Below, piece by piece: positions 43,196-49,618 of a stretch of 64,000 nt of DNA. Numbering within the stretch: the first letter of the stretch is position 1; every line of letters starts with the position of its first letter. The notes below the pieces were generated by a model. That model made no database searches. It saw nothing but the letters and a program-made list of their open reading frames with translations, and was not told the origin of the DNA. A program made the translations under genes and the position numbers. Origin of the DNA: Bordetella genomosp. 2 (lineage in GTDB: Bacteria > Pseudomonadota > Gammaproteobacteria > Burkholderiales > Burkholderiaceae_B); NCBI RefSeq assembly GCF_002261345.1, contig NZ_NEVT01000006.1, forward strand, positions 992,001 through 1,056,000, written 5' to 3'.

Positions 43196-43447
43196 TCAGG
43201 GACGGGTGGACGCCGGGCCGACGGCGGGCTCGCCCGCCGGCGCGCCGGCGGGCGGCGCGCCGCCTTCGACGCGCTCGACCACCAGGCCGCGCTTGACCGC
43301 CCCCGCGGTGATGGGCTGGTCGTCGAAGCGCGTCACGGCCAGGTAAATGGTGATGATGCACCCCAGCATGGCCAGCAGCGGCCCGGTCATCAGGAACCAG
43401 GGCCACGGCTCGCGATACCAGGCGTTGGATTGTTCGGGCGTATTCAT
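43196..43447 (-). CDS. ccoH: cbb3 oxidase accessory protein FixH/CcoH-like
   Basis: An 83-residue, single-helix protein (PWPWFLMTGPLLAMLGCIIT) followed by the usual FixH segment ITIYLAVTRFDDQPITAGAV. It is at the short end of the family, ending in a Pro/Ala/Gly-rich tail instead of the full periplasmic domain. FixH/CcoH proteins aid cbb3 assembly. It starts 14 bases after ccoG. Confidence 0.85.
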   Translation of the reverse strand: MNTPEQSNAWYREPWPWFLMTGPLLAMLGCIITIYLAVTRFDDQPITAGAVKRGLVVERVEGGAPPAGAPAGEPAVGPASTRP

Positions 43448-43461
43448 GTGGGGCTCCGGAC

Positions 43462-44871
43462 TCAATCGGGCATGTAGAAACTGGAAGGCTCGCTGCGTTC
43501 GACCAGGCGGCCGTCGGGCGTCTGCGCCCGCGCCTGGACCTGGATGGGGTGCGGGCCCGGCGCCGCGGCGCCGGCCGGCGCGCGGATCACCACTGGCACC
43601 AGCCGGTTGGCGTAGGGTTCCAGCAGGATGTCCGGGCCGGCCTGCCGCTCGGCGTGCACGGCCAGCCCGGGCAGCCCGCCGGCCGCCAAGTGCAGCCGCA
43701 TGGGCGCGTCGGAGGTATTGATGAGCTGCAGGCGGTACACGTTCTCGACCATGCCGCCCGGCACTTCGCGCGCCAGCACGCCGCGGTCGCGGATCACATC
43801 GACCCGCAGCGGGCTGCGCAGCGCCAGCGACGCCACGAAAGCGGCCGACAACGCCAGGATGATCGCGGCGTAGATCAGCACGCGCGGCCGCAGCAGGCGG
43901 GCCCGCGCCTGGCGCGCCGACCAGCCTTCCTGCACGGCGCGCTGCGAGGTGTAGCGGATCAGGCCGGCCGGATACTGCATCTTGCCCATGACCTGGTCGC
44001 AGGCGTCCACGCAGGCGCCACAGCCGATGCACAGGTACTGCAGCCCGTCGCGGATGTCGATGCCAGTCGGGCAGACCTGCACGCACAGACTGCAATCCAC
44101 GCAGTCGCCCAGGCCGGCGGCCCGGTGGTCGGCCTTGCGCGAGCGGCCGCCGCGCGGCTCGCCGCGCCCCTGGTCGTAAGTGACCACGAAGGTGTCCGGG
44201 TCGACCATCACGCTCTGGAAACGCGCGTAGGGACACATGTACTTGCACACCGCCTCGCGCATGAAGCCGGCGTTGCCCCAGGTGGCGAACCCGTAGAACA
44301 GCATCCAGAACCATTGCCACGGCCCCAGCTGCAGCGCCAGCAGCGCCGCGCCCAGGTCGCGGATCGGCGTGAAATAGCCGATGAAGGTGTAGCCCGTCCA
44401 CCAGGCCACGACGATCCAGAGCGCGTGCTTGGCCAGCTTCAGGCGCAACTTGCGCAGGCTCCAGGGCGCGGCGTCCAGGCGGATGCGGGCCAGACGGTCG
44501 CCCTCGACCCTGCGCTCGATCCACATGAAGATCTCGGTGTAGACCGTCTGCGGGCAGGCATAACCGCAGAACAGCCGGCCGGCCACCGCCGTGAACAGGA
44601 ACAGCGACAGCGCCGAAATGACCAGCAGCACCGCCAGGTAGACCACGTCCTGCGGCCACAGCACCAGGCCGAACAGGTAGAACTTGCGCGCGCCCAGGTC
44701 GAACAGCACGGCCTGGCGGCCGTTCCATTGCAGCCACGGCATGCCGTAGAACACCAGCTGCGTCAGGAAGACGAACACCACCCGCCAGCGCGCGAACACG
44801 CCGCTGACCGAGCGCGGGTGGATCTTGCCGCGCACCTCGTCGATCGTGTGTTCAAGCGTATCGGACTGCAC
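43462..44871 (-). CDS. ccoG: cbb3 oxidase accessory iron-sulfur protein CcoG (FixG/RdxA)
   Basis: A 469-residue membrane protein with several helices, a CGYACPQTVYTEIFMW element and two ferredoxin-type cluster motifs (CVDCSLCVQVCP and CIGCGACVDACD), plus a C-terminal immunoglobulin-like FixG domain. CcoG is linked to copper reduction for oxidase assembly. The start is GTG at 44871 with a GGAGGCGAG site. It lies 13 bases after ccoP. Confidence 0.94.
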   Translation of the reverse strand: MQSDTLEHTIDEVRGKIHPRSVSGVFARWRVVFVFLTQLVFYGMPWLQWNGRQAVLFDLGARKFYLFGLVLWPQDVVYLAVLLVISALSLFLFTAVAGRLFCGYACPQTVYTEIFMWIERRVEGDRLARIRLDAAPWSLRKLRLKLAKHALWIVVAWWTGYTFIGYFTPIRDLGAALLALQLGPWQWFWMLFYGFATWGNAGFMREAVCKYMCPYARFQSVMVDPDTFVVTYDQGRGEPRGGRSRKADHRAAGLGDCVDCSLCVQVCPTGIDIRDGLQYLCIGCGACVDACDQVMGKMQYPAGLIRYTSQRAVQEGWSARQARARLLRPRVLIYAAIILALSAAFVASLALRSPLRVDVIRDRGVLAREVPGGMVENVYRLQLINTSDAPMRLHLAAGGLPGLAVHAERQAGPDILLEPYANRLVPVVIRAPAGAAAPGPHPIQVQARAQTPDGRLVERSEPSSFYMPD

Positions 44872-44884
44872 CTCGCCTCCGCCG

Positions 44885-45847
44885 CTACTGCGATGCCGCC
44901 GGGCCCGCTTCCGGTGCGCCCGCGCCGCCGGACCCGTCGGACATGTTCGACAGCCCCCATACCCAGGCCGTCAGGATCTTGATCTGTTCGGGCGTCAGCA
45001 CCGCGTCGTGCGCCGGCATGCGGTTGTCGCGCCCTTCCAGGATGGTCTGCACGATGGTGGCTTCCGAGCTGCCGTACAGCCAGGTGTCGTCGGTCAGGTT
45101 GGGCGCGCCCAGGGCCTGGTTGCCCTTGCCGTCCACGCCATGGCAGGCCACGCAGACATTGCCGAACTCGCGCTGACCGCGGAATACCTTGATCGGGTCG
45201 GCGGCCAGCCCCGACAGCGAGCGCACATAATGGGCGATGTCGCTGGCGGTGGCGGCGTCGATGCTGGCCTTCCAGGGTGGCATGATGCCGTGCCGGCCGT
45301 GGGTGATGGTCTGCTGGATGACTTCGGGCGTGCCGCCGTACAGCCAGTCGGCGTCCGTCAGGTTGGGGAAGCTGCGCCCGCCGCGCGCGTCGGAGCCATG
45401 GCATTGCGCGCAGGTGTTCAGGAACAGCCGCTCGCCGATCTGGCGCGCGGCCGGGTCGGCGGCGATCTGCGGCACCGTCATGGTTTCGAAGCGCGCGTAC
45501 ACCGGCTTGACCTGCTCGGCCAGCTGCGCCTGGTGGCGCCGCACCTCGTCGGCGGTGGTATAGCCCAGCATGCCCTGGAACGCGCCCAGGCCCGGCATCA
45601 GCAGCAGGTAGCCGAGCGCGAACAGGCACAACAGCAGGTACATCCAGGTCCACCAGCGCGGCACGGGGTTGTTCAGCTCGGTGAGGTCGCCGTCCCAGAC
45701 ATGGCCGGTGTCGTCGACCGGCCCCGCGGTCGGGCGCTTGCCCAGCCAGCGCCGCTGCGTGTACAGCAGCCACAGACACCAGGCGATGCCGCCCAGCGCG
45801 ATGCAGGCAATGAAATAGCTCCAGAAGCCGTTGATGAAATCGCTCAT
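44885..45847 (-). CDS. ccoP: cbb3-type cytochrome c oxidase dihaem subunit CcoP
   Basis: A 320-residue subunit with two N-terminal helices (FIACIALGGIAWCLWLLYTQ; MYLLLCLFALGYLLLMPGLG) and two c-type haem motifs, CAQCH and CVACH. It carries electrons from periplasmic cytochromes to CcoO/CcoN. Its start overlaps the ccoQ stop by four bases. Confidence 0.95.
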   Translation of the reverse strand: MSDFINGFWSYFIACIALGGIAWCLWLLYTQRRWLGKRPTAGPVDDTGHVWDGDLTELNNPVPRWWTWMYLLLCLFALGYLLLMPGLGAFQGMLGYTTADEVRRHQAQLAEQVKPVYARFETMTVPQIAADPAARQIGERLFLNTCAQCHGSDARGGRSFPNLTDADWLYGGTPEVIQQTITHGRHGIMPPWKASIDAATASDIAHYVRSLSGLAADPIKVFRGQREFGNVCVACHGVDGKGNQALGAPNLTDDTWLYGSSEATIVQTILEGRDNRMPAHDAVLTPEQIKILTAWVWGLSNMSDGSGGAGAPEAGPAASQ

Positions 45848-46011
45848 GGCCGCTTTGCTCCTAGTTCGGGTCGGTCTTCATCGGGCAAGGCGAACGGCAG
45901 CAAGGCCGACTCGCGGTTGGCGCGCTGCCGGCCGCACGAGTACGCCCACCAGACGATCCCGGCAAAGGTCGCCATGGATACGACGGTCATGATTCCCACG
46001 ATGTACACCAT
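45844..46011 (-). CDS. ccoQ: cbb3 oxidase small subunit CcoQ
   Basis: A 55-residue protein with one helix (MTVVSMATFAGIVWWAYSCG) and a charged C-terminus, the usual CcoQ layout. It was too short to be obvious but sits exactly between ccoO (stop at 46016) and ccoP (ATGA overlap). It stabilises the CcoP association in known systems. Confidence 0.88.
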   Translation of the reverse strand: MVYIVGIMTVVSMATFAGIVWWAYSCGRQRANRESALLPFALPDEDRPELGAKRP

Positions 46012-46015
46012 GATG

Positions 46016-46708
46016 TCAGTCCCCCTGCCCCGCGGCCGGCTGGGCCGCCTGCTGCCGGGCCTGTTCGGCCTCGGTCTGGCGCGCCTTGCGCAGCCCCACG
46101 CCCAGGCCCTGCAGGTAGGCCACCAGCGCGTCTTCCTCGGTCTTGCCGGCGATGGCCTGCGGCGCCGCCTCGATCTCGGCGTCGCTGTAGGGCACGCCCA
46201 GCTTGCGCAACGCCCGCATGCGGTCCTGGACATTCTGGCCGGTCAGCAGCGCGTGCTGCAGCCACGGATACGAGGGCATGTTGGACTCGGGCACCACCAG
46301 GCGCGGGTCGCGCAGGTGGATGCGGTGCCATTCGTCGGAATAGCGTTCGCCCACGCGCGCCAGGTCCGGGCCGGTGCGCTTGGAGCCCCACAGGAACGGA
46401 TGGTCGAACACCGACTCGGCCGCTTCGGAATAGGCGCCGTAGCGCTGCACCTCGGCCTGCAGCATGCGCACCTGCTGCGAATGGCAGCCCACGCAGCCTT
46501 CGCGGATATATACGTCGCGCCCCATCAGGCGCAGGGCGTCGTAGGGCTCGACGCCGGCCACGGCCTGGGTGGTGGAATGCTGGAAGAACAGCGGGACGAT
46601 CTGCACCAGCCCGGCGAACGACACCACCAGGATGCTGGCGACGATCATCAGGCCGATGTTCTTCTCGAGCGTCTGGTGCGAGAAAAAACCGTGTTGCTTG
46701 TTTGCCAT
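46016..46708 (-). CDS. ccoO: cbb3-type cytochrome c oxidase monohaem subunit CcoO
   Basis: A 230-residue subunit with an N-terminal anchor helix, haem motif CVGCH and distal Met in ESNMPSYPW. It is somewhat longer than the family norm because of a Gln/Ala-rich tail. It starts 10 bases after ccoN. Confidence 0.95.
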
Positions 46709-46718
46709 GGGAACCTCG

Positions 46719-48194
46719 TCAGGCGGTGGCGGCAGCGGCGGCGGCGATGCGCTCGCGCGGCTCGGCGGGCGGAATGGCCGGGTTGGCGGCGCGCTGGCCG
46801 CGCACCGTCATCCAGACGTTCCAGGCCATGATGAACACGCCGGACAGATACATGGCGCCGCCCACGAACCGGATCAGGTAGTACGGCAGGCGCGTCTTGA
46901 GTTCCTCCACGAAGCTGTACACCAGCGTGCCGTCGGCGGCGGTGTTGCGCCACATCAGGCCCTGCTGCACGCCGGCGATCCACATGGAGGCGATGTACAG
47001 CACCACGCCCACGGTGGCCACCCAGAAGTGCAACTCGACGGCCTTGATGCTGTGCATGGCCGTGCGGCCGTACAGGCGCGGGATCAGGTAGTAGAGCGAC
47101 CCGAAGGTGATCATGGCGACCCAGCCGAGCGCGCCCGAGTGCACGTGGCCGACCGTCCAGTCGGTGTAGTGCGACAGCGCATTGACCGTGCGGATCGACA
47201 TCATCGAGCCTTCGAAGGTGGACATGCCGTAGAACGACAGCGCGGTGACCAGGAACTTCAGGATGGGGTCGGTGCGCAGGCGGTGCCAGGCGCCCTGCAG
47301 GGTCATGATGCCGTTGATCATGCCGCCCCACGACGGCGCCAGCAGGATCAGCGAGAACGTCATGCCGAGCGACTGGGTCCAGTCGGGCAGCGAGGTATAC
47401 AGAAGGTGGTGGGGGCCGGCCCACATGTAGGTGAAGGCCAGCGCCCAGAAGTGCACGATGGACAGCCGGTACGAATAGATGGGCCGGCCGGCCTGCTTGG
47501 GCACGAAGTAGTACATCATGCCCAGGAAGCTGGTGGTGAGGAAGAAGCCGACCGCGTTGTGGCCGTACCACCACTGCACCATGGCGTCCTGCACGCCGCT
47601 GTAGGCCGAGTACGACTTCCACAGCGAGACGGGCAGCTCGATGTTGTTGAAGATGTGCAGGATGGCGATGGTCAGGATGTACGAGCCGAAGAACCAGTTG
47701 GCCACGTAGATGTGCTTGACCCGCCGCTTGGCGATGGTGCCGAAGAAGACGACGGCGTAGGCCACCCACACCAGCGTGATGAGGATGTCGATGGGCCATT
47801 CGAGTTCGGCGTATTCCTTGCTGCTGGTGTAGCCCAGCGGCAGCGTGATGGCGGCCGCGACGATCACCGCCTGCCAGCCCCAGAACGTGAAGGCCGCCAG
47901 CTTGTCGCTGAACAGGCGCGCCTGACAGGTGCGCTGCACCACGTAGTACGAGGTCGCGAACAGGCCGCTGCCGCCGAAGGCGAAGATGACCGCATTGGTG
48001 TGCAGCGGCCGCAACCGGCCATACGTGAGCCAGGGAATATCGAAGTTGAGTTGCGGCCAGATGAGCTGGGCCGCGATGAGGACGCCGACGGCCATGCCGA
48101 CGATGCCCCACACCACCGTCATGATGGCGAATTGCCTGACGACCTTGTAGTTGAACGTTTCTGGTCGGCCGTCGCCTGTGCTGCGATCATTCAT
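46719..48194 (-). CDS. ccoN: cbb3-type cytochrome c oxidase catalytic subunit CcoN
   Basis: A 491-residue haem-copper oxidase subunit I of the C family. Haem and CuB ligand regions are visible ([48 protein letters not shown]). It reduces oxygen to water at low oxygen tension and pumps protons. AGGAA precedes the ATG, and an FNR/ANR-type palindrome lies 58-71 bases upstream of it. Confidence 0.96.
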
Positions 48195-48248: not shown

Positions 48249-48268
48249 GTCTTGACCAAAGTCAAGAC
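48249..48268 (-). promoter_or_regulatory. FNR/ANR-type box upstream of ccoN
   Basis: TTGAC-CAAA-GTCAA (48252-48265) is a perfect match to the FNR-family half-site layout, embedded in 8-base arms GTCTTGAC and GTCAAGAC. Its centre is 64 bases before the ccoN ATG. A class II site centred at -41.5 would put the transcript start about 22 bases before the ATG, with CATCAT as a fitting -10. Confidence 0.75.
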
Positions 48269-48311: not shown

Positions 48312-48464
48312 TTATGTTTCGCTGGCATCGCGATCGGACAGGATGGACGCCGCCGCGTCGTCGGGTTCGTCGAATTGCCCATTGAACACGGCCCAGCCGA
48401 GCGCCAGCCCGATGACCAGCACGAACAGCAGCGACAGCGGCAGCAACAGGTAGAGGATGGTCAT
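48312..48464 (-). CDS. ccoS: cbb3 oxidase maturation protein CcoS
   Basis: A 50-residue protein with one N-terminal helix (LYLLLPLSLLFVLVIGLALG) followed by WAVFNGQFDEPDDAAASIL, a good match to CcoS (the FDxPEGxA-like element reads FDEPDDAA). It is needed for haem/copper insertion into cbb3 oxidase in known systems. Its start overlaps the stop of the ccoI-derived gene by four bases. Confidence 0.88.
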   Translation of the reverse strand: MTILYLLLPLSLLFVLVIGLALGWAVFNGQFDEPDDAAASILSDRDASET

Positions 48465-49453
48465 GGCATGACCGGGGCGTCGGCGCCCGCCCGCGCGGCG
48501 GCCGGCGACGCCGGCGCCCGGTAGCGGCGATACAGGCGCCACGCGTGCCCCGCCACCGCCAGCGACGACAGCAGCATGGTGATGGCCGCCAGCCAGGGCG
48601 CCACCCACCCGGCCAGCGCCAGCGGGGTCATCAGCAGATGCCAGGCCAGCGAGCCGTAGAGGCTCTGGCGGGCAGTGCGGCGCGCCGCCGCGACCAGTTG
48701 ACGGAACTGGCGGGCATCCAGCTCGGCGCGCCCGGCCGCGGCGTGGGCGGCGGCCAGCGCGGTGGGCACCGCCATGGCCATCGCGCATGGGCAGCTGATG
48801 ACCAGCAGCGCCACCATGACCGGCACGGCATGCGGCGCGTCGAGCGCCGCCCAGGCCGCGCCGGCGGCCAGCGCCAGCGCGAGCTGGGCCGCCACGAAGC
48901 GGGCCGCCACGCGGTCCGCCGCGCGGCCCAATGCGCGGCGCCAGCGCTCCAGCCGGGCATGGCGGCGCGCCCGCGCGCCGCCTTCGCGCGGCGCGATGGA
49001 CTGCCGCGCGCACAGCGCCAGGTAGCGGGCCGTGAGCAGGAAGGCCACGAACATGGTGACCGAATCGAAATAGACTTCGCCGTGGCGCAGCCAGGTGGCG
49101 TGCACGCTCGGCAGGAAGGCGGCGACGATGCCCAGGGCCACGGGCACGTCCATGCCGGCGCGGCCCTGCCGCAGGCTGCGCGCGGCGCCCTGCCAGATGG
49201 GCCAGGCCGAGTACAGCACCACGGGCACCGTCAGGACCAGGCTGGCCCAGTTCATCAGCACGATGGCCCAGTCCAGCGTGGCCAGGGCGTCGGGCGGGAT
49301 GCCGGGATGGCGGACGTAGCCCGGCCAGGCGAACATCATTACCTGCATCATGGCCAGCCAGGCCCACCCCAGGCGCAGCAAGGCATGGCGCCGCGCCCGC
49401 CGGTCGCCGGCGGGCAGATCCGGCGGCACGGAGAAAATGGAACGTCCAGACAT
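48461..49453 (-). CDS. CcoI-derived membrane protein lacking all P-type ATPase catalytic domains
   Basis: A 330-residue protein in the ccoI position, beside ccoS. It aligns to the membrane parts of the CcoI/FixI copper P-type ATPase: first helices (AWLAMMQVMMFAWPGYV), the GMDVPVALGIVAAFLPSVHA pair, YFDSVTMFVAFLLTARYLAL, the CPC helix (ISCPCAMAMAVPTALAAAHA) and the C-terminal pair (PLALAGWVAPWLAAITMLLS, then SLAVAGHAWRLYRRY). There is no HMA domain, no TGE actuator motif, no DKTGT phosphorylation site and no ATP-binding domain; CcoI proteins are usually more than twice this length. ATP-driven copper transport by this chain alone is impossible. The frame is intact and still coupled to ccoS (ATGA), suggesting a retained non-ATPase role. 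I chose ATG 49453 over a GTG at 49471. Confidence 0.8.
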   Translation of the reverse strand: MSGRSIFSVPPDLPAGDRRARRHALLRLGWAWLAMMQVMMFAWPGYVRHPGIPPDALATLDWAIVLMNWASLVLTVPVVLYSAWPIWQGAARSLRQGRAGMDVPVALGIVAAFLPSVHATWLRHGEVYFDSVTMFVAFLLTARYLALCARQSIAPREGGARARRHARLERWRRALGRAADRVAARFVAAQLALALAAGAAWAALDAPHAVPVMVALLVISCPCAMAMAVPTALAAAHAAAGRAELDARQFRQLVAAARRTARQSLYGSLAWHLLMTPLALAGWVAPWLAAITMLLSSLAVAGHAWRLYRRYRAPASPAAARAGADAPVMP

Positions 49454-49618
49454 GTGCCCGATCGTAGCCACGGAGCCCGGCAGCCAATTTGATTGAAATC
49501 AAACTAGCTGCAAGAGCAGACTTTCTTACCACGCCGACCGCGCCGCGCGAGACATCCGCAACGCCCCGGGCTGCCCAGGATCAATACGGGCGCCCATCGG
49601 CGCCGCGATTCACCGCCG

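Follow-up and report, generated by a model that had tools for sequence, protein, structure and literature searches.

The window analysed here, a stretch of 64,000 nucleotides from Bordetella genomosp. 2, carries on its minus strand a cco gene cluster for a cbb3-type cytochrome oxidase. The gene in the ccoI place encodes a CcoI/FixI protein of 330 residues in which eight membrane helices are present and the heavy-metal-associated (HMA), actuator (A), phosphorylation (P) and nucleotide-binding (N) domains are absent. The stop codon of this short ccoI overlaps ccoS in an ATGA.

49489..49502, no strand assigned: FNR/Anr-type box TTGATTGAAATCAA, a perfect match, about 36 bp upstream of the ccoI start
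48461..49453, minus strand: short ccoI, an ATPase-less CcoI/FixI membrane core of 330 aa
48312..48464, minus strand: ccoS, 50 aa (PF03597, 4.9e-15; TIGR00847, 43.8 bits, cut-off 28.35)
46719..48194, minus strand: ccoN, catalytic subunit of the cbb3 oxidase (TIGR00780, 779.6 bits, cut-off 583.15)
46016..46708, minus strand: ccoO (TIGR00781, 275.2 bits, cut-off 200.65)
45844..46011, minus strand: ccoQ, about 55 aa, between ccoO and ccoP (PF05545, 6.5e-5, under the curated cut-off)
44885..45847, minus strand: ccoP (TIGR00782, 265.4 bits, cut-off 179.95)
43462..44871, minus strand: ccoG, cupric reductase (TIGR02745, 491.9 bits, cut-off 316.7)
43196..43447, minus strand: ccoH, shortened to about 83 aa (PF05751, 1.7e-4, just under cut-off, profile positions 1-36 of 150)

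Domain content of the short CcoI

CcoI is regarded as indispensable to cbb3 oxidase on account of its ATP-driven copper pumping. An N-terminal HMA domain is common, but not universal, in P1B-type ATPases; short CcoI has none, and the CxxC motif occurs in 0 of 28 short sequences. The phosphorylation motif DKTGT is missing from all 28 and present in 20/20 full-length proteins, and GDGxND is likewise found in none of the 28. The actuator-side loop has 35 residues versus 141 in full-length CcoI and contains no TGE, and the second loop, on the nucleotide-binding side, has 51 residues versus 304. PF00122 is the sole Pfam family matched by the 62 short members scanned, and no ATP-binding part is left. 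Judged from sequence, the eight-helix transmembrane arrangement is that of the P1B-type ATPase membrane fold. The initial annotation had described a protein with its helices kept, its soluble domains gone and an ATGA junction to ccoS, and the domain, motif and helix analysis confirms that description; the helices also fit a P1B-ATPase, as the proposed homology to that membrane domain called for.

Short CcoI occupies the same operon place beside ccoS and ccoN as CcoI/FixI, the CopA2-type P1B-1 ATPase of, for example, Rhodobacter capsulatus. The two have in common the eight helices, an MMQVMM-like motif, Cys-Pro-Cys and Met-x-x-Ser, and the short form descends as a single clade from inside the full-length CcoI/FixI tree. 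Unlike CcoI/FixI, the short form has no HMA, A, P or N domain, its Tyr-Asn ligands have become Trp-His, Arg68 has become Asn and Trp267 has become Gly. The stretch from M36 to W69 with the MA-MB turn is about six residues longer (34 residues in 28/28 short proteins versus 27-31 in full-length ones). CopA of Legionella pneumophila (3rfu, 4bbj) differs from short CcoI in being a complete copper-efflux ATPase and no cbb3 assembly factor.

Linkers of almost constant length among short CcoI proteins stand where the soluble domains were.

48920..49000, minus strand: linker at the former actuator domain, residues about 152-178, dN/dS 0.17
48680..48736, minus strand: linker at the former phosphorylation and nucleotide-binding domains, residues about 240-258, dN/dS 0.21

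Such near-constant lengths could dock a partner, and the lost ATPase domains might then come from a soluble protein acting in trans, to give a split P-type ATPase. We regard this arrangement as highly improbable, since a TIGR01525 search of the whole Bordetella genome returned no orphan soluble domain, although smaller or diverged domains would escape such a search. It found four long P-type ATPase frames plus the short ccoI and no full-length CcoI. The metal ATPases over cut-off are frames of 866 and 768 aa, joined by two more distant P-type ATPases. The second-best match to short CcoI in this genome is too weak to register; full-length CcoI proteins of the family score 1e-13 to 2e-40. The possibility, raised at annotation, that a complete CcoI lies elsewhere in the genome was rejected because the P-type ATPases found there fail to match short CcoI well.

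Distribution, origin and conservation

Short CcoI was found in 26 of the 37 family genomes among 61 relatives (mostly one per genus, the window's genome included), and the other short forms of that sample are 50-84% identical to the window protein. Among the remaining 11, the match in G001 breaks at a contig edge, G019, G020 and G033 carry full-length CcoI, and the rest have weak or no ATPase matches. A larger set of 268 genomes of the family, presumably Alcaligenaceae, contains 200 with a CcoI-like match at E ≤ 1e-15. Scores in the short-form range (E ≤ 3e-49) were obtained for 182/268, with frame lengths known for only part of these. Sixteen of the 200 are of the full-length type (frames of 672-858 aa, best E 2e-40), counting G252, whose 367-residue frame near a contig end was classed as full-length by score, and two of the 200 (G124, G275) are fragments adjoining contig ends. 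Weaker matches lie in full-length frames in G183, G193, G194 and G197, and full-length CcoI is carried by 19 or 20 family genomes. A hand count puts the short form in about 30 genus groups within the family.

The 80 named loci were those of 417 that most resembled the short profile; their uniform shortness is therefore partly a product of selection, and the 268-genome count is the less biased one. By title, these 80 all belong to Alcaligenaceae (Bordetella, Achromobacter, Alcaligenes, Pusillimonas, Pollutimonas, Castellaniella, Advenella, Paenalcaligenes and others). Short ccoI is intact in 80/80 and encodes 309-340 aa depending on the choice of start. Its genetic partner, the gene for the 50-residue and presumably unrelated CcoS/FixS, lies downstream in every one of them, with the ATGA overlap in 36, and ccoN adjoins in 77 (one divergent), the other three loci ending at a contig edge. 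The orthologues of the same length beside ccoS that the initial annotation proposed to look for in relatives therefore exist. Two loci (L117, G154) have ccoI and ccoN divergent yet adjacent, which suggests that the linkage survives rearrangement. None of the 131 records from a plasmid search covered 80% of the query, and the open-licence literature, as far as its text was accessible, yielded no report of a short CcoI.

The CcoI tree, built from 297 shared columns of 28 short and 20 full-length sequences, contains one short clade with a support of 100/100 and requires one change; the branch leading to this clade has 0.87 changes per column. The CcoN tree (33 rows, 20 short carriers and 13 full-length) has a matching split with a support of 98/94 and again one change. 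Closest to the short carriers among its full-length rows are G033 and four of the five g65 genomes; the fifth (G222) groups elsewhere, with G019. Both topologies indicate that short CcoI arose once, and horizontal spread is not supported because each tree needs only one change. Among the matches listed from 398 Pseudomonadota genomes (at least about 155), hits outside the family sit in long frames save for a few in f57, and no clear second reduction was seen. The f57 frames come from draft genomes and measure 332, 425, 486, 585 and 637 aa, the 332-aa frame beginning at base 55 of its contig; with these five as the only exceptions among the matches listed, independent reduction elsewhere was set aside. 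One family member, G033 of genus g26 (L153, L216), has a full-length, long-branch CcoI, in contrast to the short-range scores of 25 further g26 genomes. The CcoN of G033 likewise groups apart from the short carriers, a pattern suggesting that the entire operon was replaced.

Short ccoI has a dN/dS of 0.135 (Nei-Gojobori, 28 Achromobacter loci, 377 of 378 pairs used), compared with 0.072 for ccoN (27 loci) and 0.119 for ccoS (28 loci) in Achromobacter. L073, L086, L109 and L116, all with intact short genes, lie outside this set. The value is 0.036-0.091 in the helices, 0.17-0.21 in the N-tail and loop remnants and 0.55 in the C-tail. A recent deletion pseudogene was ruled out by the 80/80 intact loci together with the dN/dS of 0.135, and the initial view that this is a kept protein and not the product of random decay holds up, since relatives share the short form and dN/dS is far below 1. 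In the 268 genomes, ccoN and a CcoI-like gene occur together in 195, ccoN alone in 8, CcoI alone in 5 and neither in 60, from lists compared by hand. The eight with ccoN alone comprise two at contig edges, four in g63 with full-length CcoI under the threshold and two in g22 without a match. G081 and G100 each have two ccoN and two short ccoI genes, with one ccoI beside each ccoN.

These data bear on the idea that cbb3 assembly no longer depends on CcoI and that the short gene is a lingering relic. Passages of a study of Bordetella bronchiseptica (PMC11257404) lend it some color, in that a strain with cco alone was unobtainable and the cco deletion alone had no effect on growth in ambient air. 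The conservation of the gene already makes this reading unlikely, and we give it very little credence: dN/dS is 0.135 for the gene as a whole, with 0.04-0.09 for the helix regions, the gene is intact throughout the best 80 of 417 named loci, and it stands beside each ccoN in the two genomes with two copies.

The box upstream of ccoI matches what we take to be the FNR/Anr consensus, TTGAT-N4-ATCAA. In the window, 0.44 matches with ≤1 mismatch are expected by chance. Among 75 of the 80 named loci (L073, L086, L109 and L116 were left out), the box is perfect in 60 and has ≤1 mismatch in 68, usually at -48 or -49, against an expectation of 1.3 boxes from control stretches of the same loci. It is also present in four of the five full-length g65 loci (three with one mismatch, one perfect; the start of the fifth was misplaced in the test) and absent from five other full-length loci tested. 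The g65 boxes suggest that the box may predate the reduction of CcoI. A second FNR-like sequence, TTGACCAAAGTCAA at 48252-48265, lies upstream of ccoN and has two mismatches to the consensus.

Copper ligands of the membrane core

In copper ATPases, site I is described as Cys, Cys and Tyr and site II as Asn, Met and Ser (passages of PMC12617631; similarly PMC8475189). The corresponding positions were compared in 106 short proteins, the 80 named loci plus 26 sampled genomes, between which species may overlap.

48785..48793, minus strand: Cys221-Pro222-Cys223 in M4, copper site I, invariant in 106/106
48638..48643, minus strand: Trp271-His272 in M5, replacing the Tyr-Asn ligands, His in 106/106, Trp in 105/106 and Phe in 1
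48563..48577, minus strand: Met293 ... Ser296-Ser297 in M6, copper site II, Met293 and Ser296 in 106/106, Ser297 in 104/106

The full-length pair at M5 has Asn in 20/20, preceded by Tyr in 19 and Trp in 1. Short CcoI thus belongs with CcoI by descent, by its cco locus and by its Cys-Pro-Cys and Met-x-x-Ser motifs, and the Tyr-Asn ligands are not found in it. Six positions (7, 68, 138, 267, 271 and 272) have different conserved residues in the two forms, at cut-offs of 90% in short and 70% in full-length proteins. Histidine binds Cu(II) more strongly than Cu(I), according to passages of PMC5552934, so the altered site might not be one for Cu(I).

The initial annotation named a passive conduit, a CcoS/CcoG partner and a scaffold side by side. 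The ligand pattern bears on a scaffold role without copper, in which the protein would stabilize the CcoS/CcoN assembly as a membrane partner and the ligands would be kept only for helix packing. Short ccoI is joined to ccoS in all of the best 80 of 417 named loci, and the shortening of CcoH in the family points to a simplified assembly complex, both of which fit such a role. The invariance of Cys221, Cys223, His272, Met293 and Ser296 in 106/106 proteins and the fixed replacement of the Asn ligand by His, a copper-capable and not a neutral residue, argue against a pure scaffold, which we consider unlikely.

Residues outside the ligand set bear on the side from which copper would reach the site. 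Positions 146 and 180 align with L. pneumophila CopA residues that we take to form the cytosolic entry, and both drift: 146 is Ala in 11/106 short proteins (that of the window included) and 180 is Asn in 34/106. Position 130, aligned with an acid of the same CopA that presumably marks the periplasmic exit, is Asp or Glu in 106/106. Drift at the entry positions with retention of the exit acid fits a site served from the periplasmic side, although Met101, which we assume to be an entry-side residue, is invariant. A passive channel would draw differently on the same residues, with Cu(I) reduced by CcoG flowing from the cytosol down an affinity gradient to SenC, or with import driven by the membrane potential. 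The residues of a transmembrane path are largely kept (Met101, Cys-Pro-Cys, the His/Met/Ser set and the acid at 130), and ccoG is retained in the operon. Outward flow of a cation would oppose the membrane potential, the presumed cytosolic entry is the part that drifts, and the CxxC-bearing N-terminal domain, the expected docking place for CopZ, is gone; we judge a channel of this kind to be improbable.

Proposed copper delivery and the cbb3 oxidase

At the level of sequence, the single origin, the purifying selection, the co-inheritance with ccoS and ccoN, the upstream box of the anaerobic type and the retention and change of ligands are established. The loss of the ATP-using parts, the strong selection on the core and the new His suggest that short CcoI probably hands copper over without pumping it. 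Our preferred reading, to which we give an even chance, is that CcoI lost its motor once, in the ancestor of most Alcaligenaceae, and has since been an ATP-independent membrane copper-transfer factor for cbb3. In its fuller form, which is plausible but falls just short of an even chance, a single conversion, stable across about 30 genus groups, would have turned a P-type ATPase into a copper carrier that needs no ATP, has one ligand replaced by His and feeds CuB. The general exporter CopA would perform the ATP-driven export of Cu(I), and SenC and PCuAC would pick up the copper in the periplasm. Short CcoI, its Cys/His/Met set facing mainly the periplasmic side, would dock with CcoS and CcoN and move copper into the CuB site by ligand exchange. 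Alcaligenaceae would thereby have split the roles, with CopA pumping and short CcoI handing over, the pumping role of CcoI dropped and its hand-off role kept.

A Cu-ATPase over the TIGR01511 cut-off, SenC and PCuAC are each present in 26/26 short-CcoI genomes of the 61 sampled. Most of the other genomes also carry all three, so their presence in genomes with full-length CcoI or without short CcoI makes it permissive and not diagnostic. The earlier suggestion that another P1B ATPase supplies the ATP-driven step is consistent with the first count and is not singled out by the second. A single TIGR01511 match reaches E ≤ 1e-40 in each of G022, G026 and G030. This sole ATPase is separated by 1.2 kb from a SenC-type gene in G030 (L198) and adjoins a PCuAC-type gene in G022 (L199). 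Passages of PMC8475189 state that plasmid-borne copA cannot substitute for ccoI in R. capsulatus, which suggests that CcoI does something besides export or docks specifically. A SenC fusion to CcoI is reported to be functional in vivo in the same organism, and together with the failure of copA to stand in for ccoI this points to a specific hand-off.

The accounts from other bacteria tie cbb3 assembly to an active CcoI. Copper translocation by CcoI of R. capsulatus requires ATP hydrolysis, ATP-dependent copper transport by the protein was shown in vitro, and the deletion is not rescued by copper (passages of PMC8475189). Similarly, copper is reported to fail to restore cbb3 activity in Caulobacter without FixI. 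These accounts raise the question of whether the oxidase is made at all in carriers of short CcoI. Two reduced genomes, G030 (1.73 Mb, one contig) and G245 (1.6 Mb), are both rated 100% complete, and short CcoI is the only CcoI found in either. Their ccoN is the only haem-copper oxidase gene and there is no cydA or bd oxidase match in searches for these two families. With cbb3 as the sole terminal oxidase found and only short CcoI, the oxidase is presumably assembled in both, which speaks against a non-functional assembly. In G022, G247 and G250, cydA is missing too, and each has one additional PF00115 match, a weak one, in a frame of some 754 aa. Of the 23 genomes tested, the remaining 18 encode a bd oxidase, except that G202 has a second strong haem-copper oxidase instead. 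Taylorella has one terminal oxidase, of the cbb3 type, according to passages of its genome paper (PMC3250509). No FNR/Anr-type box was found within 400 bases upstream of ccoI in the reduced genomes G030, G022 and G245. The argument for a working oxidase leans on G030 and G245, and the missing box there counts against the preferred reading.

In B. bronchiseptica, ccoN has the highest transcript among the oxidase loci (passages of PMC11257404), and the cco results described above for this species suggest that in some carriers cbb3 may be conditional or its assembly poor. Passages of a paper on CrpH of Bordetella pertussis mention genes for several copper-assembly proteins, of uncharacterized function, and ccoN as a pseudogene.

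Most cbb3-bearing members of the family that includes Bordetella, Achromobacter and Alcaligenes thus carry a CcoI stripped of every ATP-using part, and in a few of them cbb3 seems to be the sole terminal oxidase. If the preferred reading is true, the hand-off role of CcoI has been separated from its pumping role in nature. What CcoI contributes to CuB besides pumping, a standing question, becomes testable through these proteins, which may also bear on the part played by cbb3 in B. bronchiseptica. ATPase family names misdescribe the short CcoI proteins.

CcoH is short in this family as well. Among 81 short-CcoI loci (the window included), ccoG was found in 72, and in these CcoH measures 66-113 aa, versus 152-209 aa in seven outgroup loci. 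In the full-length set a candidate was found in 14/17 loci, at least one of them spurious, and CcoH is also short (64-77 aa) in family members with full-length CcoI, namely four g65 loci and G033, which suggests that the shrinking of CcoH may predate that of CcoI.
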